Positions 21,138 to 42,056 of a stretch of 48,401 bases of DNA are shown here, piece after piece (the first letter of the stretch is position 1; every line of letters starts with the position of its first letter). The DNA comes from Flavobacteriaceae bacterium (lineage in GTDB: Bacteria; Bacteroidota; Bacteroidia; Flavobacteriales; Flavobacteriaceae), in NCBI GenBank assembly GCA_017851655.1, contig JAFMMH010000007.1:1-48401 (forward strand), read 5' to 3'. The position numbers were made by a program, and so were the translations under genes. The notes under the pieces were generated by a model, which did no database searches, was not told the origin of the DNA, and saw only the letters and a program-made list of their open reading frames with translations.

Positions 21138-21145
21138 TATATTTT

Positions 21146-22027: not shown

Positions 22028-22033
22028 TACAAA

Positions 22034-26292: not shown

Positions 26293-26326
26293 TGTTTACA
26301 AAGATACAGAAAGCCTATTGAGTACC

Positions 26327-27850
26327 TTAAGGATTTACTTCCATATTATTGCCTAGTGGGTAAGCAGTTGTGTTAATTCGACCTTCCAGCTCTCCGTTTT
26401 CCAATTTGAGTACTCCACGAGGACACACAGAAGCACAGATACCACAACCCACACAAGAGGAGCGGACAATGTTTTCACCACGTTGAGCATAAGCTCTTAC
26501 ATCAATACCCATTTCACAATAGGTAGAACAATTACCGCAGGAGATACATTGACCTCCATTGGTTGTGATACGGAAGCGAGAAAACAAACGTTGTTGAAGT
26601 CCAAGAATTGCAGCCATTGGACATCCAAAACGACACCATACCCGACTTCCTAAAAAAGGATAAAAGCCCACACCAAGTACTCCTGAAAAAGCAGCTCCAA
26701 TACCAAAGCCATACCATTTTTGAAAACTGTAAGCATCAATAAAAAGAATAGTGTATTGTCCTGAAAATGATTGAATACTGAGGATTAAAGTCAGAATAGT
26801 ACCCAAACTGATGAGGGTATATTTAGCATCTTTTTCAAGACCATTCTTGTTCCAGAAAAAGAGTGTAAGCATAAGAATAATTAAAACAATTACAACGCCG
26901 CTGATAAATTGTCCTCTTGTCATAAAACTTAGTTCAGGATTGTCTGTTAAAAAAGACCACATAGCAGCTATGGTAGTAACTACTACAAAAACCAAAACAG
27001 CATGGATCATCCATCGTTCAAATTTCCAAACACTTAATTTTTTGCTGGATAACTGTCGGAAAGGATCTCCAGCAGTTTCTGCCAAAGCACCACAACCGCA
27101 AACCCAAGAACAATACCATCGTTTTCCATAGCGATATGTAAGTATAGGAGATATTATAAAAATCATGACTAGACCAAAGACTAAAAAAAACAGTCCTAAG
27201 TTTCCTCCGTTGAGCATATTTTTTAAATGCCATTGATCTAGAAAATAGTAGTTTAATGGCCACATATTTTTCAAATCTTTTGCAAAATAAGGGGTATCTG
27301 GATTTAGTTTTGATAAAATTTCAGGAATAAAAAATGCAAAACAAAATTGAAAAAAGATGACTGATAAGGTTCGAAAAAGTTGGTACCGGTTTCCCCAGTA
27401 TTTCCATATAAACTTTATCCCAAACAAGATGATCGCAAAGGTGTATAGTGTACCGTAAAGAAACCATTGGGTGGCTGCATTACCATTTAAGAGGTAACTC
27501 AAAGGATCAAAAAGAGCGACCAATCCAGTGCTTACTCCTTGCTCATTATATCCCAGCACTTCTGGGAACCAGTATATGGCAATATAAAAAGCGGTAAGGA
27601 ACATCCCCAATATCCAACCTGAAATTCCTCTTGTAGAGAGGGCATTAAACCAGACACCATCGTTTTTAATCCCTGCTAACGTGTTTCCATAAATTGCATT
27701 GAAATAGAACAACCCACCCAAAGTTAGGAGCAGAAAACTAATTCCTAAGTAAGCTGTTTTATTTTCGATAGGAATAATAAGTGCAAAGAAAAGAAGGGTT
27801 AAACCCAACAACCCTAATCCTATACTCCCTTGTCTTTTTATACTAAACAT
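26327..27850 (-). CDS. Membrane polyferredoxin (NapH/NosR/CcoG-like)
   Basis: A 507-residue integral membrane electron carrier with about ten hydrophobic segments. Cys-rich motifs typical of NapH/NosR-like proteins are present: CSWVCGCGALAETAGDPFR in the middle and CRFGCPMAAILGLQQR later. Two complete ferredoxin-type sites lie at the C-terminus: CISCGNCSTYCEMGIDV and CVGCGICASVCPRGVL, enough for two 4Fe-4S clusters. I chose the ATG at 27850, which follows the oxidoreductase stop by 10 nt; an in-frame start at 27877 would overlap it. It probably links a quinone or the membrane to the flavoprotein encoded just upstream. What is reduced is unknown. Confidence 0.88.
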   Translation of the reverse strand: MFSIKRQGSIGLGLLGLTLLFFALIIPIENKTAYLGISFLLLTLGGLFYFNAIYGNTLAGIKNDGVWFNALSTRGISGWILGMFLTAFYIAIYWFPEVLGYNEQGVSTGLVALFDPLSYLLNGNAATQWFLYGTLYTFAIILFGIKFIWKYWGNRYQLFRTLSVIFFQFCFAFFIPEILSKLNPDTPYFAKDLKNMWPLNYYFLDQWHLKNMLNGGNLGLFFLVFGLVMIFIISPILTYRYGKRWYCSWVCGCGALAETAGDPFRQLSSKKLSVWKFERWMIHAVLVFVVVTTIAAMWSFLTDNPELSFMTRGQFISGVVIVLIILMLTLFFWNKNGLEKDAKYTLISLGTILTLILSIQSFSGQYTILFIDAYSFQKWYGFGIGAAFSGVLGVGFYPFLGSRVWCRFGCPMAAILGLQQRLFSRFRITTNGGQCISCGNCSTYCEMGIDVRAYAQRGENIVRSSCVGCGICASVCPRGVLKLENGELEGRINTTAYPLGNNMEVNP

Positions 27851-27860
27851 CCTTTCGTTT

Positions 27861-29207
27861 TTAAAGCCTAAAGGCAAATTCTGATTTTTTCAATTCCCAT
27901 TCGTTCTGAAATTCTTTCAAGTAGTTTAGGGAAAACTCCTGGTCAAAAAAGGCGGCATCCAGATTCTTGATCACTTCTTCTATTTGATAATTCTGAGTGA
28001 GCCATTGATCAAATGTAGCATGACGCATTCGGATTCCTAGACTAAGACCACCCAATATCTTCATGCTGTTAGGATCAAAACTCAGACGAATGGCACAATT
28101 TTTATTCGGATGTTGCCAATATATTTGGTTTTCTTTTTTCTTATCAGGAGAAGGACTTATCTGACCATAGGTTTGGTATTCAATGTCAAAAAATTTAGCA
28201 GAATTAAACCAAGGTCCTGGTTGGTATGCGGTTTTTTTTCCTGCTAGGGTTTGAGCCAAAGTTTCTCCCATCATTCGGCCGGTATACCACACGGACTCAA
28301 TGGCACTTCTGCCAGGGAGTGGTTCTTGCTGTTCAGCACAGTCTCCTATAGCGTAAATGTTTGGGAGGTTTGTTTCTAAAAAACGGTTTACCAAAATTCC
28401 TTTGCCTATAGCGAGTCCACTTTCTTTTAAAAAGGCCACATTAGGTGAAACACCCACAGTCAAACCCACAAATTCTGAGGGAAGTTCTTTGCCGTCTTTT
28501 GTTTTAACTGCGCATACACGCCCATCGGTATCTCCTTTGATGGATTTTAATTCTGATAAAAGAAGGAGATCTATACCATGTGCACGAATATGTTGGTTTA
28601 CAAGTTCCGATTCTTCTGGAGGCAATACCGTATTCCAGAAACTAGATTCACGGATTAAAAAATGGACTTTTTTACCCCTACTGTGGAGCATTTCTACCAA
28701 TTCGATTCCGATTAAACCACCTCCGATTACGGTGGCTTCATGAATAGAATCTGACCATTTTTCAAGATTGTCCAAGTCTTGTTTATGATAAAGTCCCTGT
28801 ACAGCCTTCAAATCTTGTCCTGGCCAGCCAAAACGGTTGGGAATAGATCCGCAAGCTAAAACCAAGTTATCATAACTCAGGGATGATTTGTCATCAAATA
28901 GAAGTTGTTGGTTTTCAGAATCCAATTGAATTACGCGTTTTTGTATCAATTGGATTTTATTTTTCTCCCAGAAGTCAGCTTCGTAAGGTTGGGTATGCTC
29001 AAATTGCATATGCCCCATATAAACATACATTAAAGCCGTTCTTGAGAAAAAAAAGGGTGCCTCCTCTGAAATCACAGTAATAGAATAATCTGTTTTTTTT
29101 CTTAGGTGGCGAGCGGTCGTGATGCCAGAGATGCCATTGCCTAAAATAACGATTGATTTTTTGGTAGCTCCTAGGATCATACCACTAATGTACAGCTTTT
29201 GTTTCAT
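27861..29207 (-). CDS. FAD/NAD(P)-dependent oxidoreductase (NirB/rubredoxin-reductase-like)
   Basis: Pyridine-nucleotide-disulphide-type flavoprotein of 448 residues. It has the FAD site SIVILGNGISGITTARHLRK (about residues 17-36), the NAD(P) site ATVIGGGLIGIELVEMLHSRGKKV and the C-terminal FAD contact IYAIGDCAEQ. No active-site CxxC follows the first motif, so it is not a disulphide reductase; it resembles nitrite-reductase N-terminal and rubredoxin-reductase proteins. A further C-terminal domain of about 110 residues has no motif I recognise. The frame is open upstream to 29300, but the ATG at 29207 is the sensible start. It heads the operon with the polyferredoxin, a likely electron partner. 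Confidence 0.87.
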   Translation of the reverse strand: MKQKLYISGMILGATKKSIVILGNGISGITTARHLRKKTDYSITVISEEAPFFFSRTALMYVYMGHMQFEHTQPYEADFWEKNKIQLIQKRVIQLDSENQQLLFDDKSSLSYDNLVLACGSIPNRFGWPGQDLKAVQGLYHKQDLDNLEKWSDSIHEATVIGGGLIGIELVEMLHSRGKKVHFLIRESSFWNTVLPPEESELVNQHIRAHGIDLLLLSELKSIKGDTDGRVCAVKTKDGKELPSEFVGLTVGVSPNVAFLKESGLAIGKGILVNRFLETNLPNIYAIGDCAEQQEPLPGRSAIESVWYTGRMMGETLAQTLAGKKTAYQPGPWFNSAKFFDIEYQTYGQISPSPDKKKENQIYWQHPNKNCAIRLSFDPNSMKILGGLSLGIRMRHATFDQWLTQNYQIEEVIKNLDAAFFDQEFSLNYLKEFQNEWELKKSEFAFRL

Positions 29208-29280
29208 AATATTATGCGTATATTTAATGACAGAATTTAAAGTGTAATTATTCTTATTTATAATTAACTCCCCCAAATAA

Positions 29281-29751
29281 ATGACAACGATTCCTTCCAA
29301 TTCGTGGGCTATAGTAACAGCTGTTCTTACTGCAACTGAGAAGCAAGTGTGGCAGCTTTTAACAGATCCGCTGCTAACAGAACGTTACATGTATAATTGC
29401 CAACTCCATGCCATATGGGAAGTTGGACAGAAAGCCGTTTGGAAAGCAAAGAATGCCGATGGAAGTTTGAATGATCATGTCGTTGCAGAAGTACTTTTTT
29501 ATCGGCCTTATAGTCATTTGGCGTTTACCATTTTTCATCAAGCTACGGAGACCCACTCTGCTACCCAGTCTGAATTACATTATTTACTAGAGCAAGAAGG
29601 TGATGGAATTAGATTGACCATAAAACAAGGTGATTTTGAAACTATAGCAGACGGAGCTTCATTACGAGCCCAGTGTCAAAAAGGTTGGGAGTATGTTATG
29701 CCGCAATTGATCAAAACTTGTAATGCTACCTTTAGAAATGAAACCCAATAG
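29281..29751 (+). CDS. SRPBCC (AHSA1/START-like) domain protein
   Basis: A 156-residue soluble protein with the SRPBCC fold, a deep hydrophobic cavity for a small ligand or lipid. Family features are the N-terminal strand WAIVTAVLTATEKQVWQLLTDP, the central VAEVLFYRPYSHLAFTIF, TQSELHYLLEQEGDGIRLTIKQGDF, and the long C-terminal helix GWEYVMPQLIKTC. It is divergent from the FAD oxidoreductase gene (73 nt between starts) and lies next to the arsenosugar genes. There is no direct evidence of what it binds. A chaperone or regulatory role in the neighbouring pathway is only a positional guess. Confidence 0.82.
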   Translation: MTTIPSNSWAIVTAVLTATEKQVWQLLTDPLLTERYMYNCQLHAIWEVGQKAVWKAKNADGSLNDHVVAEVLFYRPYSHLAFTIFHQATETHSATQSELHYLLEQEGDGIRLTIKQGDFETIADGASLRAQCQKGWEYVMPQLIKTCNATFRNETQ

Positions 29752-29796
29752 CCAATGTATGAATACCCCTATAATCTTAACCTAAATTTTTAACCT

Positions 29797-29982
29797 ATGA
29801 CCTACTTTTTATATTTAGTATTTTTTGTTTGCTGTGTATTGATTTTTAAGAGAATCTTAAAAGAATTCGAAACCGGATTTGATTATTTTTCCGGAGTGCT
29901 TTATTTGGTGATATATTTAGTTTCCTGTTCGCTTGTTTGGTTATTTATTTTTGGGATTTATTATTCTATAACCGATGTCTAG
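29797..29982 (+). CDS. Small two-helix membrane protein, unknown
   Basis: A 61-residue hydrophobic protein with two predicted membrane helices (about residues 2-18 and 32-55) separated by a charged loop (FKRILKEFETGFDYFSG). I do not recognise a family. It lies 45 nt after the SRPBCC gene on the same strand and ends 5 nt before the stop of the convergent glycosyltransferase gene. Two TTAACCTA repeats (29777-29784 and 29790-29797) precede it. It is probably real because it fills an otherwise empty gap and has a coherent membrane pattern, but this is not proven. Confidence 0.5.
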   Translation: MTYFLYLVFFVCCVLIFKRILKEFETGFDYFSGVLYLVIYLVSCSLVWLFIFGIYYSITDV

Positions 29983-29987
29983 TTTTA

Positions 29988-30695
29988 TCAGCTGATATAT
30001 TTGACATAATACTGCTGAAGGAATTTCGGACCGGCTCCCAGCCAATGGCTAAGATGAAGTGCTCCAAAATGGAAAAGCAATCGAAATACTCCGTTTTCAT
30101 AAAATCGACGGGAGGACGTTTGAATTTTTTGAGGAAGTACATGAAACCCTCCTTTACGGTAGAGCTTTCTGATGAAATGAATATCCTCACAAACTAAATA
30201 TCTTGAGTCATAGCCTCCGAGCTGTTCAAAAGTATTTTTGTCGATAAAAAGGGATTGGTCTCCACCACGACAAAGAATATGATTCCAACGGCTTCCATTT
30301 GCAGCACATCGGAGAATCCAATTTGCTCGATCAAACTTCAACTGAAAACATCCAGCCTGGGCTCCTTTTTTTATAGCCTGTGTAAGTAGTAAATCAAAAT
30401 TTTCGGGCAATTTACTATCCACATGTACAAAATATAACCACGCGTTTCCAGCCTTTTCTGCACCATAATTCATTTGACATGCTCGTCCGGGTCTACTTTG
30501 ATAACTTCGAATACTTGGATTGTTTTGTAACCATTCCCAGCTTCCATCAGTGCTTCCTCCGTCAACAATAATTAATTCTTGAGGGCTATACCACTGGTTA
30601 TTAATATGTAAAACAAATTGAGGCAGTAAACTGATTTCATTTAGAATTGGGACAATTACAGTAAACTGAATGCTATTTGTTGAGACTCCAGTCAT
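29988..30695 (-). CDS. TIGR04283-family arsenosugar biosynthesis glycosyltransferase
   Basis: Family 2 glycosyltransferase of the TIGR04283 type, 235 residues. It shows FTVIVPILNEISLLPQFV, IIVDGGSTDGSWEW, PGRACQMNYGAEKAGNAWLYFVHVDSKLP (the RxxQMNxGA and HxDS pattern is distinctive of this family) and WNHILCRGGDQSLFIDK. The C-terminal FHFGALHLSHWLGAGPKFLQQYY is also typical. It is expected to take part in finishing arsenosugars; its exact donor and acceptor are unknown. I chose the ATG at 30695; the frame extends to 30725. It overlaps the DUF547 gene end by 23 bp, so it is the last cistron of the arsenosugar minus-strand operon. Confidence 0.9.
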   Translation of the reverse strand: MTGVSTNSIQFTVIVPILNEISLLPQFVLHINNQWYSPQELIIVDGGSTDGSWEWLQNNPSIRSYQSRPGRACQMNYGAEKAGNAWLYFVHVDSKLPENFDLLLTQAIKKGAQAGCFQLKFDRANWILRCAANGSRWNHILCRGGDQSLFIDKNTFEQLGGYDSRYLVCEDIHFIRKLYRKGGFHVLPQKIQTSSRRFYENGVFRLLFHFGALHLSHWLGAGPKFLQQYYVKYIS

Positions 30696-31368
30696 AGGGT
30701 AAATAGTCAATTTTTGGATTGTCAAGTAGAATTCCGCTATGGGTTTTTATGAATTCCAGGCGTTCAGATTTAGATCCAAAATCTTTTCCAAACCACAAAA
30801 ATATTCGGGATAATTGGAGCTGATTTGGGAGGAGTTTGTTTTTAGTGGAGTCTAACAAAAAATCTCGTGTTACCTGGTTCAGTTGTGCTTCCAATTGTTT
30901 TTCCTTAAAAGCGGTGTTGCGTAATTTGGGACATGAGGCTGATGCACAATTGATCGCAAAATGAATCCGTGGTTCATTTAGTTTACGTAATATATCATGT
31001 TCAATATTTCCCAAGGTATATTTTTGTTCATTCACCTCAAAAACTTCGGTATCCCATGGATCATTGACCTCCTTGATACTTTTAAGTGGATAATGTTTTA
31101 AAATGAGTTGGACAGTCAAGGCATTGTAGGCATTGATCCAATATGCAAGTACCGCTTCTTTTGAAGAAATCTCTAAAGGAGGGAGCTTTTCTAGGGTGTG
31201 GATGTAGGCATCCAAATTGTCTTTATCCGCTAACCAGTTTGAATAATCTACTTGACCATTTTCGTTCACGAATTTTTGCAACATCTGATTCCATCGAAAA
31301 TGTTTGTTTTTCTGAGCGGTCAGCTGAAAGGCACTCAAAATTAAAAGAAAGAAAACCAGATTTTTCAT
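30673..31368 (-). CDS. DUF547 exported protein within the arsenosugar operon
   Basis: A 231-residue DUF547 protein with a signal peptide (MKNLVFFLLILSAFQLTAQ, cleavage expected after about residue 19), so it is periplasmic or outer-membrane associated. Family motifs are GQVDYSNWLADKDNLDAYI, AVLAYWINAYNALTVQLIL and RIHFAINCASASCPKLRN. The last contains the conserved CxxxxC pair, a possible catalytic or metal/thiol site; the fold is papain-like by family knowledge. I chose the ATG at 31368 because it starts the signal peptide and lies 17 nt after arsM. Its place between arsM and a glycosyltransferase suggests a step outside the cytoplasm; the function is unknown. Confidence 0.83.
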   Translation of the reverse strand: MKNLVFFLLILSAFQLTAQKNKHFRWNQMLQKFVNENGQVDYSNWLADKDNLDAYIHTLEKLPPLEISSKEAVLAYWINAYNALTVQLILKHYPLKSIKEVNDPWDTEVFEVNEQKYTLGNIEHDILRKLNEPRIHFAINCASASCPKLRNTAFKEKQLEAQLNQVTRDFLLDSTKNKLLPNQLQLSRIFLWFGKDFGSKSERLEFIKTHSGILLDNPKIDYLPYDWSLNK

Positions 31369-31385
31369 GGGGATAAATTTGAGGG

Positions 31386-32354
31386 TTAACAACAGCCTCC
31401 ACCATCATAATGATGAGTGGATGGTGAGATAAAAAGATCGGTTCTGTTTAGTAAAGCTAACGCTGCTGCAGTTTTATCACAAATAGATAAAGGTTGATTT
31501 TGCAAAAGGATATGTCCTTTTTCATCATCAAAAAAGGCTTCTTCACCGAAATAAATGGCTGCTTTACCAGTAAATATACAGGGGCCGTCTTCTGGCATAG
31601 GGTCTTTAATGGCACATACTTCTACGCTTTCTATATAAATTGTCTCATCTGTAGGATAATGCTTGGAATCCAAGATGCGGTAGGGTCTTTTAGCACGGAT
31701 TTCTAACGTTCCGAAACCAACATCGGTGAGCATTTTTAAATAGTCGTTTAATGGAATGGAACCTGACAAACACAATGCCCGCAGGCGTTCATCGTCTCGA
31801 AGTGCTGCATTCATAGGCTGTTCACAAATGGGATCACTCATTACTAGACGACCATTGGGTTTTAAAACGCGATACATTTCTTTTAGAGCCTGCTTTAATT
31901 CATCTTGTTTAAAGATATTGAACAGACAATTTTGAGCTGCTACGTCGATACTGGAATCTGCCACAGGCAATTGTAATGCATCTCCTTTTTCTAGGCGAAC
32001 AAATTCTTTTTGAAACCATCCGTTTTGTTGTTCTGCTTCTTCAAAATTAGCTTGACAAGCTTCTAACATTTCTTCTACGATATCTACTCCGATAACACCT
32101 TCTTTTTGCCTTGAAAAATAACTAAACTGAAGTAATTCCATTCCACCACCAACACCAACATAAAGGATTTTAGGATTGTTCACCAAATCTCGAGGGTGAA
32201 CGGTACTTCCACAACCGTAATTCATCTCCTGCATTTTAGTTGGGATCGAAAGGCCTGGAAATTGCCATATTGGAGTAGTCGTACAACAAAGCCCTATGTC
32301 TGGAGTAAGTGCAGCGTCTTTGTAAACGGATTGAGTTGTTTCAAGATATCCCAT
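31386..32354 (-). CDS. arsM: Arsenosugar-type arsenite methyltransferase ArsM
   Basis: SAM-dependent methyltransferase that methylates trivalent arsenic; in arsenosugar routes it supplies the dimethylarsenic unit. The 322-residue protein has the family-specific N-terminus GLCCTTTPIWQFPGL (Cys23, Cys24) and MNYGCGSTVHP (Cys48). The SAM loop is ILYVGVGGGMELLQF, then GVDIVEEM. Candidate arsenic-binding cysteines lie in AAQNCLFNIF (Cys143) and LRALCLSGSIP (Cys195), about the spacing of the catalytic pair in known ArsM. It ends GGGCC. It lies 28 nt after the phosphorylase gene. The N- and C-terminal Cys clusters distinguish it from ordinary ubiquinone-type methyltransferases. Confidence 0.92.
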   Translation of the reverse strand: MGYLETTQSVYKDAALTPDIGLCCTTTPIWQFPGLSIPTKMQEMNYGCGSTVHPRDLVNNPKILYVGVGGGMELLQFSYFSRQKEGVIGVDIVEEMLEACQANFEEAEQQNGWFQKEFVRLEKGDALQLPVADSSIDVAAQNCLFNIFKQDELKQALKEMYRVLKPNGRLVMSDPICEQPMNAALRDDERLRALCLSGSIPLNDYLKMLTDVGFGTLEIRAKRPYRILDSKHYPTDETIYIESVEVCAIKDPMPEDGPCIFTGKAAIYFGEEAFFDDEKGHILLQNQPLSICDKTAAALALLNRTDLFISPSTHHYDGGGCC

Positions 32355-32382
32355 GAGCTATTTTTTCTTAAAAATAAAAGAA

Positions 32383-33195
32383 TTAGTTAAGCGCAACCAG
32401 ACCTTTAACGATTTTTATCAAGTGATGTTCTCCTTTTTTAGCCATTGCTAGAATGTCTGGTATGTCTATGGGTTTGAGATTTTGAGGGTCACATACATCG
32501 GTGAGGACAGAAAAAGCGACAACTTCAATACTGAGCTGCCGGGCAACAATTACCTCGGGAACTGTAGACATTCCCACAGCATCTGCTCCAATAATTTTTA
32601 AATAGCGGTATTCAGCAGCAGTCTCTAATTGGGGACCTACTACAGCAGCATAGACTCCAGAATGCAATTTAATTCCTTCCATTTGAGCAATCTTTTTGGC
32701 TTTTTGTTGAAGTGTTTCTGAATATGGTGCGCTCATATCTACAAAACGTTCTCCTAACTTTTCCATTCCTTTGAGGGCTAGGGGAGAGCCCCCTTGGAGA
32801 TTGAGGTGATCGGTTATAAGCATTAGTTCCCCTTTATTAAAATCAAGATTGACTGCACCCGCTGCATTGCTGATTAGTAATTGGATCCCTCCAAGGGCTG
32901 CAAACACTCTGACCCAAAAGGTAATTTCAAAAAAATCATAACCTTCGTAAAGATGAAACCTCCCTTGAAATGCTAGAATCGTTTGCCCTTCCAGTTTACC
33001 GTAAATTAGTTTTCCCTTCTGATAGGATTGAGAAGAGGTAGGAAAATGAGGAATTTCATTGTAGTCAGCTTCTAAAATAATTTCGATATCTTCAATTAGT
33101 CCATCCAAGCCTGTGCCTAAAACGATTCCAAGTTCAGCTTTTTTAATTCCTAGTTCATTTAAAAAGCGCACACTTTCTTTAATTTTCTCTTTCAT
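32383..33195 (-). CDS. Purine nucleoside phosphorylase (trimeric type) in the arsenosugar operon
   Basis: Phosphorolyses purine nucleosides to base and ribose 1-phosphate; 270 residues. Motifs: GIVLGTGLDGL (phosphate loop), FQGRFHLYEGY, ISNAAGAVNL, GPQLETAAEYRYLK (Glu of the base site), GADAVGMSTVPEVIVA and FSVLTDVCDPQNL. Asp233 in this last motif replaces the Asn that gives 6-oxopurine preference in mammalian PNP; Asp at this place also occurs in adenine-using relatives such as MTA phosphorylase. It overlaps the TIGR04282 gene by 17 bp and precedes arsM. I infer that it may remove adenine from the ArsS product; it could also be the ordinary salvage enzyme. Confidence 0.92.
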   Translation of the reverse strand: MKEKIKESVRFLNELGIKKAELGIVLGTGLDGLIEDIEIILEADYNEIPHFPTSSQSYQKGKLIYGKLEGQTILAFQGRFHLYEGYDFFEITFWVRVFAALGGIQLLISNAAGAVNLDFNKGELMLITDHLNLQGGSPLALKGMEKLGERFVDMSAPYSETLQQKAKKIAQMEGIKLHSGVYAAVVGPQLETAAEYRYLKIIGADAVGMSTVPEVIVARQLSIEVVAFSVLTDVCDPQNLKPIDIPDILAMAKKGEHHLIKIVKGLVALN

Positions 33196-33844
33196 CGAAA
33201 TGCTCGTTTAATTGGGTTAATAAATCCAGGTGGAGAACTAGATCTTTATAAAGATCAATATCTGACTTTTCTTCTAAAAGCGCTATTGACTTTGTTTTTA
33301 GATCCAGAATACTGTCTTTTAAGACTTTTGGACCACTCCAAATTTTATTTTTAAAAAGTTCTGGATGAGGTTCTTTTAGTCCTAACAGGTAATAACCACC
33401 ATCCTTTGCAGGACCAAAAACAACTTCGGTGGCATCCAGTGCGCTAAAGGCTCCTTCCAGAAGCCCCAGGTGAAGATTCCACAGGTCTGTTCCGATTAGA
33501 ACAATTTTGGCGTAACCCTGAGAAAACCCCCAATTGAAAGCAGATTCCATTCGTTCACCCAAGTCTTTTCCTTCTTGCTTTCTTTTCTGAAAATTTTGAA
33601 AACAAGTTTCAAAAGCGCTAGGGGAGTCTCCAGTGTAAAATACAACCACATCAGACCATGCCTTTTGTAAGACATTATCTGTTTGTTTCAAAAGTGCTTT
33701 ATAGACCCACAGTGTTTTTTCGCTTCCCAGACTTTTCGCCAATCTGGTTTTTACTGTCCCTAGAACAGGCGTTTTTGCAAATACAAGGATGAGTGTACTC
33801 AATGGATTATTTTGATTCTTAAAATTAAGAATATCGGACGACAA
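33179..33844 (-). CDS. TIGR04282-family (DUF2064) arsenosugar biosynthesis glycosyltransferase
   Basis: A 221-residue glycosyltransferase-like protein of the DUF2064/TIGR04282 family. Signature motifs are LILVFAKTPVLGTVKTRLAKSLG, DLGERMESAF, KIVLIGTDLWNLHLGLLEGAF and VVFGPAKDGGYYLLGL. It resembles nucleotidyl- or sugar-transferases of the GT-A fold and is linked by family definition to arsenosugar synthesis. There is no ATG before the conserved core: the start is TTG at 33844 or TTG at 33802. It is first in the minus-strand arsenosugar operon and faces the degraded kinase fragment. The exact reaction is not known. Confidence 0.88.
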   Translation of the reverse strand: MSSDILNFKNQNNPLSTLILVFAKTPVLGTVKTRLAKSLGSEKTLWVYKALLKQTDNVLQKAWSDVVVFYTGDSPSAFETCFQNFQKRKQEGKDLGERMESAFNWGFSQGYAKIVLIGTDLWNLHLGLLEGAFSALDATEVVFGPAKDGGYYLLGLKEPHPELFKNKIWSGPKVLKDSILDLKTKSIALLEEKSDIDLYKDLVLHLDLLTQLNEHFDEREN

Positions 33845-33903
33845 CCCACACGATCTTTTTTAAAAAAAATCCTTACCGGTATGGAAAATCTATTCAGTCT
33901 TGA
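33845..33903 (-). other. Leader region before the arsenosugar minus-strand operon
   Basis: Short AT-rich gap with a palindromic TACCGGTA on the minus strand (33882 to 33875 region) and an A/T-run (TTTTTTAAAAAAA). The operon promoter should lie here or inside the kinase remnant, but I see no convincing TAnnTTTG match. Confidence 0.25.
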
Positions 33904-34125
33904 TTAATTCAATTTTTCTATTGAAATAAAATGTGGATTCATCTGGGAGCGAAGAGATCGTCCTTCAAGAAGTGCAATTTGATTTCGATAAGCGATATCC
34001 GTTTTTTTTCGGTTGTTTTGAAAAAAGAGGAAAAATAAAATCACCAATAAGTTAGAGGCTATGAGAGGGAAATAGTCTTCAAAGACATTTATTGCAATAA
34101 GGGGGAAATCAAATGTGAGGGGCAT
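33904..34125 (-). pseudogene. Remnant of a LytS/YesM-type sensor histidine kinase
   Basis: A 73-residue open frame that encodes one membrane helix (about residues 19-36), a short coiled linker (IAYRNQIALLEGRSL) and LRSQMNPHF. This is the start of the His_kinase domain that normally continues HFIFNSLN, with the phosphorylated His at residue 65. Here it reads HFISIEKLN and stops. Adding one T to the run would restore HFIFN but then give only about nine further residues. The ATPase domain is entirely missing and the N-terminal sensor is very short, so both ends look truncated. It is a dead fragment between the two divergent arms of the arsenosugar locus. Confidence 0.75.
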
Positions 34126-34350
34126 ACATTTGGAGTTAAAACAATACTTTTTAGGTTAAATGAATAGACAGATAGGCAGAAATTTGGGTTATACAACTAT
34201 AACGAAACTAATTCATTTTTTTTAAAAAGGTCCGTTACTCCTTGAAAGGATTAAAATAATCGTTAAAAAACATTTTGACTCCCTTTTGAAAGAATTTGCA
34301 TTTTGTTTTTTTTATTGGGTTAGTTTTTTTGAACTTGCCAAAAAAAGTCA
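34126..34350. other. AT-rich intergenic region upstream of the peroxidase-like gene and arsS
   Basis: No coding potential seen. It has long T runs and two similar segments on the plus strand, ACTCCTTGAAAGGA (about 34235-34249) and ACTCCCTTTTGAAAGA (about 34277-34293), which may be an imperfect repeat. A loose promoter match, TTTG (34302-34305), 15 nt, TAGTTTTT (34321-34328), precedes the ATG at 34351. Any arsenic-responsive control of the plus-strand arm should act here. Confidence 0.35.
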
Positions 34351-34686
34351 ATGAACAAATCCTATTATCAAAGCCAAGATTTAAAAAAATTTAAAAATAT
34401 ATCAGATTGGTCTCCCGATCTCGGAAAAAAGTTTTTTGATTATTACAATAGCGTTTTTGAAGAGGGTAATCTTTCTGCACGAGAAAAATCATTGATTGCC
34501 TTAGCAGTAGCACATACCGTACAATGTCCCTATTGTATCGATGCTTACACCCAAGATGGTTTAGAACGCGGAATCGAAAAAGGAGAGATGATGGAAGCGC
34601 TTCATGTTGCAGCTGCTATCCGAGGCGGAGCCTCTTTGGTTCATGGTGTGCAAATGATGGAAGTTTACGAAAAACGCACAATGTAA
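34351..34686 (+). CDS. Arsenosugar biosynthesis-associated peroxidase-like protein (AhpD/CMD fold)
   Basis: A 111-residue carboxymuconolactone-decarboxylase/AhpD-like protein of the kind that accompanies arsS. Core motif: LSAREKSLIALAVAHTVQCPYCIDAYTQDGLERG with the redox CxxC (CPYC, about residues 56-59) and the conserved downstream His (EALHVAAAIRGGASLVHG). Such proteins are thiol peroxidases or disulphide reductants; here it may reduce an arsenical or protect against peroxide, which is inference. Its stop codon (TAATG) shares one base with the ATG of arsS, so the two are translationally coupled. Confidence 0.9.
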   Translation: MNKSYYQSQDLKKFKNISDWSPDLGKKFFDYYNSVFEEGNLSAREKSLIALAVAHTVQCPYCIDAYTQDGLERGIEKGEMMEALHVAAAIRGGASLVHGVQMMEVYEKRTM

Positions 34687-35744
34687 TGGGAGTCAAATCT
34701 CTAAAGAAAAGAGAACACCAGCTCTCAAATACAGCGCAACAATTGGAAATTCTCAATAGCGGTATTTTTGCTGCCGGAGGGGAACTTCCCAAGTTTGAGG
34801 ACAAATTGAAGGAAACCCAAACAGGACCTATACGTCCAAAAAAACTTGAAATTTTACAATTAAACTTGGGTTATATGTGTAACCAGGTTTGTGCACATTG
34901 TCATGTAGATGCCGGGCCAGATCGGAAGGAAATGATGAGTCGCGTAACCTTAAAAAAATGTTTGCAGATTTTACAACAGACCTCCGTAAATACCCTAGAC
35001 CTAACGGGAGGCGCACCAGAAATGCATCCTGATTTCCGATGGTTTGTAACGGAGGCTTCCAAGATAGGTGTAAAGGATTTTATAGTCCGCTCCAACCTTA
35101 CGATTTTAAGAGCCAATAAAAAGTATTATGACCTCCCCGAGTTTTTTAAAGTTCATAACATCCATGTGGTGTCTTCCTTGCCTTTTTATAAAAAAGAAAA
35201 AACGGACCGGCAACGGGGTGAGGGTGTTTTTTCACAGTCCATCGAAGCCTTGAAGGCGCTCAACAAAGTAGGGTATGGACTATCGGGAAGTGGATTGCAA
35301 TTGGATTTGGTCTACAACCCCGCAGGTGCTTTTTTAGCTGGAAATCAGCAGGCTTTGGAACAGGATTTTAAAAAAGCACTAAAAAAGGATTTTGACATTG
35401 AATTCAATCAGTTGTTTACCATTACAAATCTCCCGATCAGTCGATTTTTAGAATACCTGATCGCTTCAGAGAATTACGAAGACTATATGCAACGTTTGGT
35501 AGAAGCATTTAATCCTGCTGCCGTAGCCAATGTGATGTGTACCAATACACTCTCAGTCCGTTGGGATGGTTTTTTGTACGATTGTGATTTCAATCAGATG
35601 TTGGATTTAAAAGTAGCCAGTCCAGTACAGCATTTGAATGACTTTGATTTAAAACAGTTGCAAAGTAGAGCCGTTTGCATTTCCCAACATTGCTATGGCT
35701 GTACAGCAGGGGCAGGGAGTAGCTGTCAGGGAGCTGTTGTTTGA
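34686..35744 (+). CDS. arsS: Arsenosugar biosynthesis radical SAM protein ArsS
   Basis: Radical SAM enzyme of 352 residues that, in characterised relatives, attaches the 5'-deoxyadenosyl group of SAM to a methylated arsenical, the first committed arsenosugar step. The 4Fe-4S site CNQVCAHC (Cys65, Cys69, Cys72; CxxxCxxC) is followed by HVDAGPDRKEMM, and DLTGGAPEMHPDF serves SAM binding. C-terminal cysteines lie in LYDCDFNQ and CISQHCYGCTAGAGSSCQG (residues 331-349), typical of ArsS. I chose the ATG at 34686, which overlaps the peroxidase-like stop; the frame is open further upstream inside that gene. No in-frame TGA suggests selenocysteine in this copy. It ends 3 nt from the convergent trpA. 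Confidence 0.93.
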   Translation: MGVKSLKKREHQLSNTAQQLEILNSGIFAAGGELPKFEDKLKETQTGPIRPKKLEILQLNLGYMCNQVCAHCHVDAGPDRKEMMSRVTLKKCLQILQQTSVNTLDLTGGAPEMHPDFRWFVTEASKIGVKDFIVRSNLTILRANKKYYDLPEFFKVHNIHVVSSLPFYKKEKTDRQRGEGVFSQSIEALKALNKVGYGLSGSGLQLDLVYNPAGAFLAGNQQALEQDFKKALKKDFDIEFNQLFTITNLPISRFLEYLIASENYEDYMQRLVEAFNPAAVANVMCTNTLSVRWDGFLYDCDFNQMLDLKVASPVQHLNDFDLKQLQSRAVCISQHCYGCTAGAGSSCQGAVV

Positions 35745-35747
35745 TGC

Positions 35748-36512
35748 CTATTTCCGAATGCTCTGAATAAATTCAGGAATTTGTGCTACTTGCTGCTCCT
35801 CCAAAAACTTTATAAAAGCGGAACCGATAATAGCTCCTTTGGTATATTTTGTAGCGGCCAAATAGGTTTCTGCATTACTGATTCCAAAGCCAACTATGGT
35901 TGGAGTATTTAATCCCATTTGTTGAATGCGTTGGAAGTAATCCGTTTGAGTATTTCCAAAAGTATTTTGAGCTCCAGTGACGCTGGCACTACTTACCATG
36001 TAGATAAATCCGTTAGAAACCTCGTCAATGTAACGTATTCGTGCTTCGGGTGTTTGAGGTGTAATCAAAAACATATTGTACAATCCGTGTTTATCAAATA
36101 GGGATTTGTATTCTTCGTGATACACATCTACGGGAAGATCGGGTATAATGAGTCCATCAATACCCACAGCTTCACAATGCTGACAAAACTTTTCAATACC
36201 AAACTGCATCATAGGGTTGAAATAGCCCATCAGTATCAAAGGAATTTCGATTTCTTCACGAATTCCTTTGAGTTGGTCAAAGAGTTTTTCGGTGGTCATC
36301 CCATTTTGTAGTGCTTTGGTAGAGCTTTCTTGAATAGTAGGTCCATCTGCAAGAGGATCTGAAAATGGCAATCCAATTTCGACCATGTCAACCCCCGAGG
36401 CTTGCAATTGTTTTAAAATTGGGACCGTATCTTCTAGATTTGGATGCCCAGCTGAAAAGTAAATGGATAATAATTTTTTATCCTCTTTAAATTTTTGATC
36501 AATTCTATTCAT
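35748..36512 (-). CDS. trpA: Tryptophan synthase alpha subunit
   Basis: Cleaves indole-3-glycerol phosphate to indole and glyceraldehyde 3-phosphate, passing indole to TrpB. The 254-residue TIM barrel has the catalytic Glu in MVEIGLPFSDPLADGP (Glu45) and Asp56. Further family motifs are MGYFNPMMQFG, GLIIPDLP and FIYMVSSASVTGAQ, with the phosphate site VGFGISNAETYLAA. Length is normal. It is the last gene of the trp operon. Its start shares one base with the trpB stop (TAATG), and its end lies 3 nt from that of arsS, so no separate terminator fits between them. Confidence 0.97.
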   Translation of the reverse strand: MNRIDQKFKEDKKLLSIYFSAGHPNLEDTVPILKQLQASGVDMVEIGLPFSDPLADGPTIQESSTKALQNGMTTEKLFDQLKGIREEIEIPLILMGYFNPMMQFGIEKFCQHCEAVGIDGLIIPDLPVDVYHEEYKSLFDKHGLYNMFLITPQTPEARIRYIDEVSNGFIYMVSSASVTGAQNTFGNTQTDYFQRIQQMGLNTPTIVGFGISNAETYLAATKYTKGAIIGSAFIKFLEEQQVAQIPEFIQSIRK

Positions 36513-37693
36513 TACAATTTAAAATATTCAATATAGGTATCCAAGTCTTTATCTCCACGACCTGAACAGTTAAACACTATAATTTCTTCTGGTCCAAATT
36601 TTCGAACATCAAGCGCAGCAAAGGCATGGGCAGTTTCGATGGCAGGAATAATCCCTTCCATCTGAGATAAAGTCAAACCCCAGTCCATTGCTTCTTCGTC
36701 AGGGATGGAAATAAATTCAGCCCTTTTGCTTCGGAATAAATGAGCATGCATAGGCCCTACACCTGGATAGTCTAGTCCGGCAGAGATGGAGTAGGGTTCC
36801 GTGATCTGTCCGTCAGCTGTTTGCATCAACAGGGTTTTACTTCCGTGAATGATCCCTTCTTTTCCTAAGGCGGATGTCGCAGCACTTTCTCCAGAATCTA
36901 TTCCTTTTCCTGCAGCTTCTACAGCAATGATGTTAACACGGTCATCATTCAAATAATGGTAGTAGAGTCCAGCAGCATTGCTTCCTCCTCCGACACAGGC
37001 TATCACATGGTCAGGATAGTCACGACCTTCCGTTTCTTGTAATTGCCATTTGGTTTCCTCGCTAATCACTGATTGAAAACGCGCAACCATGTCCGGATAA
37101 GGATGTGGACCTACAACCGAACCGATAATGTAATGGGTATCCACAGGATTATTGATCCAATCTCGAATGGCTTCGTTCGTTGCATCTTTTAGTGTTTTAC
37201 TTCCCGATTGTGCAGGGCGAACTTCGGCGCCAAGCATTTTCATTCTCGCTACGTTAGGGGCTTGACGTTTGATGTCCAAAGCACCCATATATACGATACA
37301 TTCCATTCCCATGAGGGCACAAACTGTTGCAGTAGCCACCCCGTGTTGGCCAGCTCCTGTTTCAGCAATGATGCGTTTTTTTCCAAGTCTTTGTGCTAAG
37401 AGTATTTGCCCAATCGTATTATTGACTTTATGCGCTCCTGTATGACAGAGATCTTCTCTTTTTAAATAAATCTTGGTGTTGTATTTTTCAGACAGTCGCT
37501 TTGCGAAATAAAGTGGGGTAGGACGTCCTACATAGTCCTTCAACAAGGCATCAAATTCTTTTTTAAAACCGGGTTCAGCAGTAATGCTGAGGTAGTTTTG
37601 ACGTAATTCTTCTACATTAGGATAAAGCATTTCGGGGATGTATGCTCCTCCAAAATTGCCGTAATATCCTTTTTCATTTACATTATAATTCAT
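36512..37693 (-). CDS. trpB: Tryptophan synthase beta subunit
   Basis: PLP enzyme that joins indole and serine to make tryptophan; forms the alpha2beta2 complex with TrpA. The 393-residue protein starts with YYGNFGGAYIPEMLYP and carries the PLP lysine in LCHTGAHKVNNTIGQ (Lys89). The PLP phosphate loop is CVGGGSNAAG, and AGLDYPGVGPMHAHL follows. It is the TrpB1 form, the partner of TrpA. The start overlaps trpF by 11 bp and the end overlaps trpA by one base, so translation is coupled at both sides. Confidence 0.98.
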   Translation of the reverse strand: MNYNVNEKGYYGNFGGAYIPEMLYPNVEELRQNYLSITAEPGFKKEFDALLKDYVGRPTPLYFAKRLSEKYNTKIYLKREDLCHTGAHKVNNTIGQILLAQRLGKKRIIAETGAGQHGVATATVCALMGMECIVYMGALDIKRQAPNVARMKMLGAEVRPAQSGSKTLKDATNEAIRDWINNPVDTHYIIGSVVGPHPYPDMVARFQSVISEETKWQLQETEGRDYPDHVIACVGGGSNAAGLYYHYLNDDRVNIIAVEAAGKGIDSGESAATSALGKEGIIHGSKTLLMQTADGQITEPYSISAGLDYPGVGPMHAHLFRSKRAEFISIPDEEAMDWGLTLSQMEGIIPAIETAHAFAALDVRKFGPEEIIVFNCSGRGDKDLDTYIEYFKL

Positions 37694-38300
37694 CTAATTG
37701 GTTTTTAAATGGTTCTAAGAGTTCAATATTTTTAAGTCCTGGAGAACGTTCAAATTTACTATTTACATCAATAGCATGCAGTGGCAGTTTCGTATTTATT
37801 AGACCGCAGATCTCATCTAGCTGGTCCGGACCAATTCCTCCACTGAGGAAAAAAGGTTTTCTTTCAGTGTATTCCTTAAGTACGGTCCAATCAAAAGTAT
37901 AGCCATTGCCTCCAGGGAGTGGGCCTTTGGTATCAAACAGGTAGTAATCACAACTGTTTTCATAGGGATGGAGACTGTTGAAATCAAATTGTTTTTGGAT
38001 TGAAAAAGCTTTGATGACTTCAACATCAAATTCACTAACAATTGAACAGTAGGCAGGGCTTTCTTCTCCGTGAAGTTGAACCGCCTTCAGTTCATGATCT
38101 TCGATGGTAGATTGAATATAATCTAGGGAAGCGTTTACAAATACGCCTGTTTTCTTTATCGATTCAGGGAGTTTGGGTGTCTCCCGATCCACATAGCGAC
38201 TGGAAGACGACCAGAAGATAAAACCCATATAGTCCGGTTGTAAAGAAACCAAAGCACTTATGTTTTCAGGGTCTCGCATACCGCATACTTTTAATTTCAT
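37683..38300 (-). CDS. trpF: Phosphoribosylanthranilate isomerase
   Basis: Converts phosphoribosyl-anthranilate to the carboxyphenylamino-deoxyribulose phosphate in tryptophan synthesis. The 205-residue single-domain TIM barrel has the catalytic Cys in LKVCGMRDPENI (Cys6). YMGFIFWSSSSRYV, AVQLHGEES, PFFLSGGIGPDQ and the C-terminal AIDVNSKFERSPGLKN follow; Asp is the general acid in DVNSxFE. It is separate from trpC rather than fused to it as in enterics. It overlaps trpC by 4 bp and trpB by 11 bp. Confidence 0.96.
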   Translation of the reverse strand: MKLKVCGMRDPENISALVSLQPDYMGFIFWSSSSRYVDRETPKLPESIKKTGVFVNASLDYIQSTIEDHELKAVQLHGEESPAYCSIVSEFDVEVIKAFSIQKQFDFNSLHPYENSCDYYLFDTKGPLPGGNGYTFDWTVLKEYTERKPFFLSGGIGPDQLDEICGLINTKLPLHAIDVNSKFERSPGLKNIELLEPFKNQLDEL

Positions 38301-39082
38301 CCTTCCAATTGTTTAATGAATTGTTGAGCTGCAAAACCGGGATCATTGGTTTTCATAAAATTCTCTCCAACTAAAAACCCCTGATAACCATAGGTTTGTA
38401 AGTCTTTTATTGCTTCAATGTCAGAGATGCCACTTTCGGAAACCTTGACAAAATCATTAGGAATTTGTTCCGCTAGCTGTTTGCTGATCTCTAAAGACAC
38501 CTCAAAAGTTTTGAGGTTTCGGTTGTTAACGCCCAACATATCTATGGTGGGCATTAATGATTTTTCAAGTTCTTCTTGGTTGTGAACCTCCAAAAGAACT
38601 TCCAAATCCAGTTGTTTTGCTACTGTAGATAATTGCTTAATTTCTTCACGGGTTAAAACGGCTGCGATTAATAAGATCAAATCTGCGCCATGTGCTTTGG
38701 CTTCGATCAGTTGGTATTCGTTTACTATGAATTCTTTTCTGAGAAGGGGAAAATTTGTTACTGCCCGGGCATGGTTTAGGTCGTCTAGCGAACCTCCGAA
38801 ATATTTACCGTCAGTAAGCACTGACATTCCGCAAACTCCAGCGTTTTCATAACCTTTGGCAACCTCATTTACAGACAAACTGTTATTGATGTTTTGTTTG
38901 GAGGGAGAGCGTCTTTTGTGTTCAGCGATGATCCCGGAACGACTCTCTTTGAGGCGCGCACTTAGTGAATTGAGTTTTCGGTCAAATAATGGAGATGCTT
39001 CCCAAAAAGAAATTGGAAAAAGCGATTTTCTGTGTTCAACTTCAATTTTTTTATCGCTAACGATACGTTCTAGAATACTCAT
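38297..39082 (-). CDS. trpC: Indole-3-glycerol-phosphate synthase
   Basis: Closes the indole ring from carboxyphenylamino-deoxyribulose phosphate. The 261-residue TIM barrel shows SGIIAEHKRRSPSKQNI (usually AEFKRxSPSKG; here His replaces the aromatic residue and Gln the Gly). It also has GMSVLTDGKYFGGSLDDL, LLRKEFIVNEYQLIEAKAHGADLILLI, GVNNRNLKTFEV and VSESGISDIEAI. Catalytic Lys and Glu positions are kept. It overlaps trpD and trpF by 4 bp each. Length is normal. Confidence 0.96.
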   Translation of the reverse strand: MSILERIVSDKKIEVEHRKSLFPISFWEASPLFDRKLNSLSARLKESRSGIIAEHKRRSPSKQNINNSLSVNEVAKGYENAGVCGMSVLTDGKYFGGSLDDLNHARAVTNFPLLRKEFIVNEYQLIEAKAHGADLILLIAAVLTREEIKQLSTVAKQLDLEVLLEVHNQEELEKSLMPTIDMLGVNNRNLKTFEVSLEISKQLAEQIPNDFVKVSESGISDIEAIKDLQTYGYQGFLVGENFMKTNDPGFAAQQFIKQLEG

Positions 39083-40074
39083 GATTGGCTGAATTGTTGA
39101 AGGGTTTTAAATGCAGTTAATGCCTTACCAGATTCCAAAGCTATTTTGGCTTTTTCAAAACCTTCTAAAGGGGAGAGGTCTAAAGCTGTGGCAAGAGCCA
39201 TACCAGCATTGGCACAGACTACATTTTGTTGTTCTTTGCTGCCTTTATTTTGTAAAATATCCATAAAAATAGCCGCTGATGATTCGACCGTTTCTCCTCC
39301 AGAAATTGTGGAAGCATCATGCGGGGTCACCCCAAAATCTTCAGGGTTTAGAAGAAGTTCTCCATGGTTACTGAATGCTTTGGTTCCTCCTGTGAGTGAT
39401 ATTTCGTCGTAGCCATCAAGTGCATAAAGTATGGTGAATTGGGTTTCCGTTTTTTGAAAGAGATAGTAATACAGTCGTGCCAATTCTAAATTGAATACAC
39501 CGGTTAGTTGGTATTTTGGAAAGGCAGGATTAACAAGGGGTCCTAACATATTAAAGAATGTTTTGACACCCAGTTCTCGTCTTACTGGAGCTACATTTTT
39601 CATTGCCGGATGGAAGAGGGGAGCATGTAAAATACAAATCCCTGCACCGTCCAAACAACGTTTTAAGAAGTCAGAATCGTTTGAAAAACGAATGCCTAAG
39701 GCCTCGAGTACATTGCTCGAACCACAACCAGAGGAGACGCCGTAGTTTCCGTGTTTGGTTACTTTGACTCCAGCCCCTGCAGTAACAAAAGCGGAGAGTG
39801 TTGAAATGTTAAAGGTATTTTTTTCATCTCCACCAGTACCGCATAGATCAATGGCTTCGAATTCGCTGAGATCTACCTGGATACAAAGTTCGAGTAATGC
39901 TTCTCTAAAGCCTTCAAGCTCTTCGAGACTGATACTTCGCATCATAAATACGGTGAGGAATGCCGCCATTTGACTTGGCGTGTATTGACCATCCGCCATA
40001 TTGATAATAACTTGTTTGGCCTGCTCTTTTGAGAGCAGTTGGTGTTGGATAAGTTGATTGATAATTGCTTTCAT
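39079..40074 (-). CDS. trpD: Anthranilate phosphoribosyltransferase
   Basis: Transfers phosphoribose from PRPP to anthranilate. The 331-residue protein has an N-terminal helical part with QYTPSQMAAFLTVFMMR. The PRPP-binding DLCGTGGDEKNTFNISTLSAFV follows (canonical GTGGDGKNTFN, with Glu for the second Gly region). GVKVTKHGNYGVSSGCGSSNVLEALG, FHPAMKNVAPVRRELGVKTFFNMLGPLVNP and YALDGYDEISLTG complete the family pattern. It is a stand-alone TrpD not fused with TrpG. It starts 6 nt after trpG and overlaps trpC by 4 bp. Confidence 0.97.
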   Translation of the reverse strand: MKAIINQLIQHQLLSKEQAKQVIINMADGQYTPSQMAAFLTVFMMRSISLEELEGFREALLELCIQVDLSEFEAIDLCGTGGDEKNTFNISTLSAFVTAGAGVKVTKHGNYGVSSGCGSSNVLEALGIRFSNDSDFLKRCLDGAGICILHAPLFHPAMKNVAPVRRELGVKTFFNMLGPLVNPAFPKYQLTGVFNLELARLYYYLFQKTETQFTILYALDGYDEISLTGGTKAFSNHGELLLNPEDFGVTPHDASTISGGETVESSAAIFMDILQNKGSKEQQNVVCANAGMALATALDLSPLEGFEKAKIALESGKALTAFKTLQQFSQS

Positions 40075-40080
40075 GACTCT

Positions 40081-40644
40081 TTAGCTATTGATCCAGTTTT
40101 CCAATATTTTTTTTCCGAAAGGAGTCAAAATAGACTCCGGGTGGTATTGAACTGCTCTGACATCGAAAGTTTTGTGGCGCAAGGACATAAGCTGTCCTTG
40201 ATCATCTAGGGAGGTAGCTTCTAGCACCTCCGGCAAGGGCATTGCGACTACCCATGAATGGTAACGTCCGACTTCAAAAGTTTGGGGGAGGCCTTTAAAA
40301 AGCAGATCATCCTTGATGATGCTTATTGGTGTTGCAACTCCGTGGTAAACTTTGTCAAGATTGATTAATGAACCACCAAACACTTCTCCAATGGCTTGCT
40401 GTCCCAGGCAAATTCCCAATATTTTTTTAGAGGGAGCATAGCGTTCTATGGCTGCTTTTAATAGTCCAGATTCATCTGGAATACCCGGACCAGGAGAGAG
40501 GAGAATATTGGAATAGTTTTCCAATTCGTCTAACTCAAATTGATCGTTGCGTTTTACAATAACTTCACAGTTTAATTCTTCCAAGTAATGCACAAGGTTA
40601 TATGTGAAAGAATCGTAATTATCAATAACAAATACTTTTTTCAT
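40081..40644 (-). CDS. trpG: Anthranilate synthase component II (glutamine amidotransferase)
   Basis: Releases ammonia from glutamine for TrpE. The 187-residue class I amidotransferase has the N-terminal VFVIDNYDSFTYNLVHYLEE and SPGPGIPDESG. The nucleophile Cys79 is in ILGICLGQQAIGEVFGG (usually CLGHQ; here Gln), and the catalytic His-x-Glu is in VQYHPESILTPFG. In many bacteria this subunit is shared with folate synthesis (PabA). No pabB is present in the window, so a double role cannot be judged. Its start overlaps the trpE end by 4 bp. Confidence 0.96.
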   Translation of the reverse strand: MKKVFVIDNYDSFTYNLVHYLEELNCEVIVKRNDQFELDELENYSNILLSPGPGIPDESGLLKAAIERYAPSKKILGICLGQQAIGEVFGGSLINLDKVYHGVATPISIIKDDLLFKGLPQTFEVGRYHSWVVAMPLPEVLEATSLDDQGQLMSLRHKTFDVRAVQYHPESILTPFGKKILENWINS

Positions 40645-42044: not shown

Positions 42045-42056
42045 GTTATTTAAATT

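Follow-up and report, generated by a model that had tools for sequence, protein, structure and literature searches.

An arsenosugar biosynthesis cluster of a Flavobacteriaceae bacterium and a proposed nucleotide-sugar route for its late steps

Introduction

In seaweeds, arsenosugars count among the main forms of arsenic. Which enzymes convert the adenosylated arsenical of their early biosynthesis to a glycoside is the question raised by a gene cluster on contig JAFMMH010000007.1 of a Flavobacteriaceae bacterium (GenBank assembly GCA_017851655.1; 1.85 Mb, 89% complete). The whole stretch of DNA that was analyzed, hereafter the window, has a length of 48,401 nt. Together with its relatives it points to specific enzymes and intermediates for this conversion. 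The cluster is probably an arsenosugar cluster in which a purine nucleoside phosphorylase (PNP), a TIGR04282 protein, and a TIGR04283 glycosyltransferase would act consecutively in the late steps, accompanied by a redox relay and further membrane glycosyltransferases. The comparisons also suggest that TIGR04282, a family named glycosyltransferase in public genomes, consists of nucleotidyltransferases.

Results and Discussion

Gene content and extent of the cluster

The seven genes reported in a preliminary description of the window were all recovered as open reading frames at their positions and on their strands. Six of them pass the curated NCBIfam cut-offs of their families, five of these models being named "arsenosugar biosynthesis" (TIGR04167, NF038099, TIGR04169, TIGR04282, and TIGR04283), and the seventh, encoding a DUF547 protein, exceeds its Pfam cut-off (PF04784). 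The assignment to arsenosugar biosynthesis is thus borne out by the specific models that the preliminary description had named as a test. A chance assemblage is excluded because of the profile scores and because the same genes recur in order in related loci.

ArsS matched at least 587 related loci, of which the 80 best were used, nearly all from Flavobacteriaceae and with flanks of at most 10 kb, owing to which far genes are undercounted and absences give lower bounds on presence. When queried by tblastn with the window proteins, all 80 loci matched AhpD and ArsS, 73 matched TIGR04282, 60 PNP, 51 ArsM, 40 DUF547, and 32 TIGR04283, followed by the oxidoreductase (18), the Fe-S protein (15), and the glycosyltransferases GT2b (14), GT2c (12), and GT87 (3). 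Typically the genes follow one another on a single strand as AhpD, ArsS, TIGR04282, PNP, ArsM, DUF547, TIGR04283, oxidoreductase, Fe-S protein, GT2b, and GT2c, with a GT87 gene after GT2c in some loci and a different order in a few, for example in Polaribacter. The gene content of the window is the same, with AhpD and ArsS oriented away from the remaining cluster genes. The description of the cluster as two divergent arms is therefore correct for the window, but the arrangement is derived and not typical of related loci. Since only L082 among the 73 related loci with TIGR04282 shares this layout, with the same trp genes alongside, the divergent arms are read as a local rearrangement. The cluster continues past 29988 and spans approximately 22742 to 35744, so that five further predicted genes belong to it, one each for an FAD oxidoreductase and a membrane Fe-S protein and three for glycosyltransferases.

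ArsM, ArsS, and the AhpD-like protein

ArsM, an arsenite methyltransferase of the arsenosugar type (31386-32354, minus strand), and the radical SAM enzyme ArsS (34686-35744, plus strand) both score far above the cut-offs of their specific profiles (NF038099, 564.6 bits, cut-off 400; TIGR04167, 442.9 bits, cut-off 300). The window ArsM can be aligned with crystallized arsenic methyltransferases, and 10 of its 12 cysteines (positions 23, 24, 48, 143, 177, 195, 259, 292, 321, and 322) are invariant in 48 rows, which represent the window and 47 of 50 related open reading frames after three of less than 310 residues had been dropped. In ArsS, conservation across 81 rows is 95% or more for the CxxxCxxC motif (C65, C69, and C72) and for the C-terminal C336, C339, and C347, and the same holds for C59 and C62 of the AhpD-like CxxC protein in 75 rows. 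This arsenosugar-associated, peroxidase-like protein (34351-34686, plus strand; TIGR04169, 186.9 bits, cut-off 120) is encoded directly upstream of ArsS. The ATG of a possible ArsS start at 34686 overlaps its stop codon (TAATG), which makes the previously noted coupling of the two genes a fair reading. The AhpD-like protein and the DUF547 protein belong to the system.

For Synechocystis sp. PCC 6803, the ArsM-ArsS pathway (Xue 2019; Cheng 2021) is cited here as restated in PMC12159101 and PMC8552651. According to these papers ArsM and ArsS carry out the first steps in Synechocystis (PMC8552651), and arsenic is adenosylated by a radical SAM enzyme during arsenosugar synthesis (PMC12159101). By its profile score, the ArsS of the window is a member of the family whose known reaction is the adenosylation of dimethylarsenite.

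Proposed route

In the proposed route, ArsM would convert arsenite to the dimethyl form and ArsS would put a 5'-deoxyadenosyl group on the dimethylarsenical, as has been shown for both families elsewhere. The PNP, using phosphate, would remove adenine to give 5-deoxy-5-dimethylarsinoyl-ribose 1-phosphate, which the TIGR04282 protein, as a CofC-type nucleotidyltransferase, would turn into a nucleotide-activated donor. TIGR04283 would then attach the ribose with its arsenic to an acceptor, for instance glycerol or the head group of a lipid. Electrons are probably relayed by the FAD oxidoreductase together with the membrane Fe-S protein, and further processing of the product, or of a related glycolipid, at the membrane is the probable task of the remaining glycosyltransferases. 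The PNP, to which no step had been assigned in the preliminary description, probably performs a key one. A wider interpretation is offered tentatively: the late half may be a nucleotide-sugar route that the NCBI names miss, in which PNP or MTAP frees arsinoyl-ribose 1-phosphate for activation by TIGR04282, after which TIGR04283 (in Bacteroidota together with GT2b, GT2c, and GT87) loads it onto a lipid or glycan, and which in Bacteroidota would be an older ribosyl-glycolipid pathway with arsenic plugged in by ArsM and ArsS.

Distribution of the late genes

Co-occurrence of these genes was analyzed in 198 genomes of the phylum (the names of phylum and class, Bacteroidota and Bacteroidia, were deduced from the window's relatives). 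ArsS exceeded its cut-off in 80 genomes, TIGR04282 in 123, and both in 78, the two ArsS genomes without TIGR04282 being G136, whose ArsS lies near a contig end, and G001, which has a TIGR04282 match below cut-off (109 bits). A comparison of 36 chosen genomes with (n = 15) and without (n = 21) ArsS found TIGR04282 in 15 versus 5, TIGR04283 in 12 versus 4, DUF547 in 14 versus 6, and the arsenosugar ArsM in 11 versus 0. Within the window's class (49 genomes; E ≤ 1e-40), the Fe-S protein and GT2b had identical profiles, with both present in 25 genomes and neither in 24; TIGR04282 occurred in one genome beyond those 25 (G126), and all 16 ArsS genomes were among them. In the 149 genomes outside the class both occurred in 18, the Fe-S protein alone in 1, and GT2b alone in 9, and the link between ArsS and the Fe-S protein was not significant there (p 0.08 in a Fisher test, which ignores shared ancestry). 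The earlier claim that glycosyltransferases and DUF547 take part in late steps is partly sustained in that these genes co-occur with ArsS or lie within approximately 10 kb of it, both in Bacteroidota and on three proteobacterial plasmids. It needs revision in that TIGR04282, by its predicted fold and invariant residues, looks like a nucleotidyltransferase rather than a glycosyltransferase, that the PNP probably performs a key step, that five more genes are part of the cluster, and that the module is partly present in genomes lacking ArsS or the arsenosugar ArsM.

Several observations weigh against the proposed route. TIGR04282 is present in 45 of the 118 genomes without ArsS. Two of these, G142 and G154 (both listed as 100% complete), lack the arsenosugar ArsM as well and keep most of the late chain in the order rhodanese, TIGR04282, fatty acid hydroxylase, DUF547, TIGR04283, oxidoreductase, Fe-S protein, GT2b, GT2c, and GT87, with no PNP in the chain. 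G182, likewise a complete genome without ArsS and the arsenosugar ArsM, keeps rhodanese, TIGR04282, PNP, DUF547, and TIGR04283; the ArsS-less G045 keeps the first four of these. The NF038099-type ArsM is missing in 4 of the 15 ArsS genomes examined, other ArsM types not having been searched there. PNP genes were not seen in ArsS stretches fetched from other families (e.g., G194, G122, G081, G112, and G092), and the PNP of the window, as the only one found in its genome, may double as a housekeeping enzyme. GT-A glycosyltransferases and nucleotidyltransferases have much of their fold in common. The oxidoreductases of the proteobacterial clusters match that of the window weakly in tblastn, and the one of Cupriavidus does not match at all. 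At the position of human N243, all 58 linked PNP rows (the window and 57 loci out of the 60 that matched PNP) have aspartate, but so do 19 of the 21 unlinked ones from the genome searches, which are what remains of a group of 30 once 8 linked rows and the window's copy are set aside and from which the G122 PNP was left out.

The strongest alternative is that TIGR04282, PNP, DUF547, TIGR04283, and the glycosyltransferases constitute an independent ribosyl- or glycolipid pathway, which ArsM and ArsS supply with an arsenic analogue or merely adjoin. This explanation is plausible, if short of probable. It would account for the asymmetry between nearly all ArsS genomes having TIGR04282 and the 45 TIGR04282 genomes without ArsS, for the identical profiles of GT2b and the Fe-S protein with all ArsS genomes inside them, and for the chain from rhodanese to GT87 in G142 and G154. 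The occurrence of TIGR04282 in 78 of the 80 ArsS genomes, often nearby, and the renewed linkage in Proteobacteria speak against it. Moreover, the TIGR04282 sequences of G142, G154, and G182 and the PNP of G182 fall among the ArsS-positive rows in the respective trees, of which the TIGR04282 tree is poorly resolved, and this position is consistent with a later loss of ArsS. The late module may be older than the arsenic enzymes or may have been kept after their loss, and in the latter case it would do something else too. The gene distribution suggests that the link of the late machinery to arsenic is not a strict one. The neighbors of TIGR04282 in three further genomes without ArsS (G183, G013, and G064) displayed no clear theme.

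The TIGR04282 protein as a candidate nucleotidyltransferase

The TIGR04282 protein (33179-33844, minus strand; 192.2 bits, cut-off 134) had been described as a glycosyltransferase, in line with the name of the family at NCBI. An alternative in which this holds, and in which adenine is removed by a hydrolase instead of a phosphorylase and no nucleotide-activated arsenic sugar is formed, is unlikely for several reasons. The best characterized structural matches of the protein are CofC-type guanylyltransferases, which score 4 to 7 Z above the glycosyltransferase match. Its weak sequence matches outside its own family are CofC proteins, and G29, K32, R34, D120, D195, and D197 are invariant in 50 rows, the KTRL motif and the DxD-type residues being invariant or nearly so. 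Furthermore, two different phosphorylase families were found clustered with these genes. Fold, KTRL, and DxD-type residues are common to TIGR04282, the CofC/FbiD guanylyltransferases, and 3-phosphoglycerate guanylyltransferase, and the protein has the fold and the invariant candidate phosphate- and metal-binding residues of CofC/IspD-fold nucleotidyltransferases. With 33.5 bits it remains below the cut-off (105) of the CofC model of F420 synthesis, TIGR03552, and is thus similar to CofC without being filed as such. The predicted structure and the conserved residues therefore do not support a glycosyltransferase but suggest a CofC-type nucleotidyltransferase, and the NCBI name is likely a misnaming.

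TIGR04283, DUF547, and gene fusions

TIGR04283 is a family-2 glycosyltransferase (29988-30725, minus strand; 211.9 bits, cut-off 182) with D55, H101, D103, and other residues at least 95% conserved in 33 rows. Its functional connection to TIGR04282 is indicated by gene fusions. In twelve genomes the TIGR04282 match lies in an open frame of more than 400 residues. Nine of these frames were fetched, and five contain both domains, in the order TIGR04282-TIGR04283 in G149 and G189 and in the reverse order in G019, G062, and G152; in G019 the TIGR04283 part scores below cut-off (169.3 bits versus 182) and the profile start is missing. That the domains occur in either order suggests that the fusions arose independently and that the two proteins act in successive steps. 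No fusion with TIGR04283 was seen in the remaining four (G067, G193, G101, and G079), for which a BLAST comparison alone was used.

The DUF547 gene (30673-31392, minus strand; PF04784, 97.1 bits, gathering cut-off 27) encodes the one DUF547 match found in the host genome, and its product has no NCBIfam match. Its N-terminus reads like a signal peptide, with a likely start at approximately 31368. H144, C149, and C154 are invariant in 33 rows. Its predicted structure is very confident (pLDDT 95) and has no clear match among the solved structures in the PDB.

Nucleoside phosphorylases of two families

The PNP (32383-33195, minus strand) exceeds the cut-off of NF006054 (303.4 bits versus 218) and is below that of the inosine/guanosine equivalog TIGR01700 (258.9 versus 293.35). 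It is the sole match to the PNP superfamily (PF01048) found in the 89% complete genome. In a quick tree of 48 PNPs, calculated without bootstrap from 27 linked sequences (sampled from those obtained) and 21 unlinked ones, 26 linked rows including that of the window formed one clade (SH-aLRT 100) that was separate from the unlinked family members. The remaining linked row, from the ArsS-less G045, branched just outside this clade, where its fork with an unlinked sequence is not resolved. A second, unlinked PNP is present in G084, and G122 has a PNP 2 kb from TIGR04283 at a place other than its ArsS stretch.

A phosphorylase of another family recurs in Proteobacteria. Plasmid-borne ArsS matches were obtained from six genera in 51 records, 46 of which are from Burkholderia (one of these was read). 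MTAP is encoded directly beside TIGR04283 or TIGR04282 in the plasmid ArsS clusters of Burkholderia glumae and Cupriavidus sp. KK10, and two genes from TIGR04282, on the opposite strand, in that of Acinetobacter portensis; the three proteins score 312.1, 276.2, and 314.8 bits, respectively, above the TIGR01694 cut-off of 274.85. The known MTAP substrate, 5'-deoxy-5'-methylthioadenosine, is close in shape to the ArsS product. No phosphorylase was seen in the fetched stretches of the other three plasmid genera, Hymenobacter, Pseudanabaena, and Thiodictyon.

A further alternative is that the cluster yields only a simple detoxified arsenical, for example dimethylarsinoyl-adenosine or free arsenoribose, with a housekeeping PNP that is merely encoded nearby. 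It agrees with the lack of another PNP in the incomplete assembly, but is very unlikely in view of the separate clade of linked PNPs, the second, unlinked PNP in G084, the TIGR04282/TIGR04283 fusions, and the co-occurrence of the transferases.

A purine-site signature special to arsenic-linked PNPs (aspartate at the position of human N243) was considered and rejected, since unlinked rows share the residue; 4m1e and 4lna also carry it.

Redox pair and further glycosyltransferases

The five additional cluster genes are all on the minus strand. The putative FAD/NAD(P) oxidoreductase (27861-29300; PF07992, 173.3 bits) is the proposed electron donor of a NapH-like membrane 4Fe-4S protein (26327-27877; Pfam Fer4-type domains). 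Oxidoreductase-type and Fe-S domains are fused in L164. In G019 a single protein with both domains is encoded immediately before the TIGR04283-TIGR04282 fusion, DUF547, AhpD, ArsS, and GT2b, in support of an electron relay within the system. Oxidoreductase genes of the same broad family as the window's are present in all three proteobacterial clusters.

GT2b (25600-26292; PF00535, 65.9 bits) resembles dolichyl-phosphate mannose synthase (PDB 5mlz, 3.8e-7). It adjoins ArsS in G019 and G062 and is separated from it by four genes in G152. GT2c (24101-25636; PF13641, 77.9 bits) is a predicted membrane glycosyltransferase of family 2. The GT87-type membrane glycosyltransferase (22742-24100; PF09594, 35.5 bits), which also adjoins GT2c in L146 and L147, is the last gene of the conserved run and the weakest case. 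Between the TIGR04283 and oxidoreductase genes, on the opposite strand, lies a gene for an AHSA1-type protein (29281-29751), which had no relative by tblastn in the 80 loci.

Comparison with known systems

Clusters of this kind and their first two enzymes are already known. ArsM and ArsS of Synechocystis belong to the same two families and catalyze the same first two steps as proposed for the window, but only the early steps appear to be established in that organism, whereas the window adds the phosphorylase, TIGR04282, TIGR04283, DUF547, the redox pair, and the further glycosyltransferases. Unlike the five models mentioned above, those that fit the PNP, oxidoreductase, Fe-S protein, and GT2b best in NCBIfam have no arsenosugar name. 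The plasmid clusters of Burkholderia glumae, Cupriavidus sp. KK10, and Acinetobacter portensis share ArsS, TIGR04282, TIGR04283, DUF547, and a pyridine-nucleotide oxidoreductase with the window, but have MTAP in place of its PNP and contain VTT/TVP38 proteins. The Burkholderia cluster is more spread out, with approximately 7 kb between ArsS and TIGR04283, and both it and the Cupriavidus cluster encode a second radical SAM protein beside DUF547 (L186:5912-7309 and L189:15392-16864). Among the open-access literature matches listed, nothing was found on PNP, TIGR04282, or TIGR04283 in arsenosugar synthesis or on the conversion of the adenosyl group to a glycoside, a weak negative because subscription papers are mostly outside this set. 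What the sequence comparisons newly suggest is the late-step proposal, the likely misnaming of TIGR04282, the wider gene set, and a late machinery that is not strictly arsenic-bound.

Intergenic region and accompanying genes

The intergenic region between the two arms (33845-34350) contains no recognizable operator or promoter. Pattern and inverted-repeat scans gave nothing convincing there, the inverted repeats being short and four of five consisting mostly of A/T. A flavobacterial promoter pattern had 6 matches in the window (4.26 expected) and none in this region.

Tryptophan biosynthesis genes (35748-42080, minus strand), named from sequence with two confirmed by Pfam, directly adjoin ArsS, and trpA/trpB relatives are near ArsS also in L082 and L003. 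The far end of the cluster is flanked by genes for TspO-like, diphosphomevalonate decarboxylase-like, and mevalonate kinase-like proteins, a UbiA prenyltransferase, and a pseudouridine synthase (18541-22807). Eleven flavobacterial loci (L022, L033, L036, L038, L047, L051, L053, L055, L056, L067, and L068) contain SusC/SusD-like proteins and a sodium:solute symporter near ArsS (named from sequence). The same loci encode a metallophosphoesterase, of which Pfam confirmed one member, and an additional TIGR04282-like protein. This gene set possibly serves the uptake or turnover of an arsenical.

A protein of the fatty acid hydroxylase/sterol desaturase family is encoded in 20 of the 80 Flavobacteriaceae loci (e.g., L008:13734-14624) and in two gammaproteobacterial clusters (L188:9036-9941 and L190:5469-6128), and was not noticed in the cluster of the window; its recurrence hints at a lipid product. 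A rhodanese-like protein that reads as exported occurs in 50 of the 80 loci (e.g., L027:11089-11601), in approximately 48 of them near ArsS or TIGR04282 if L003 and L082, which have a distant copy, are left out. The window encodes only a separate rhodanese, at 43413-43721.

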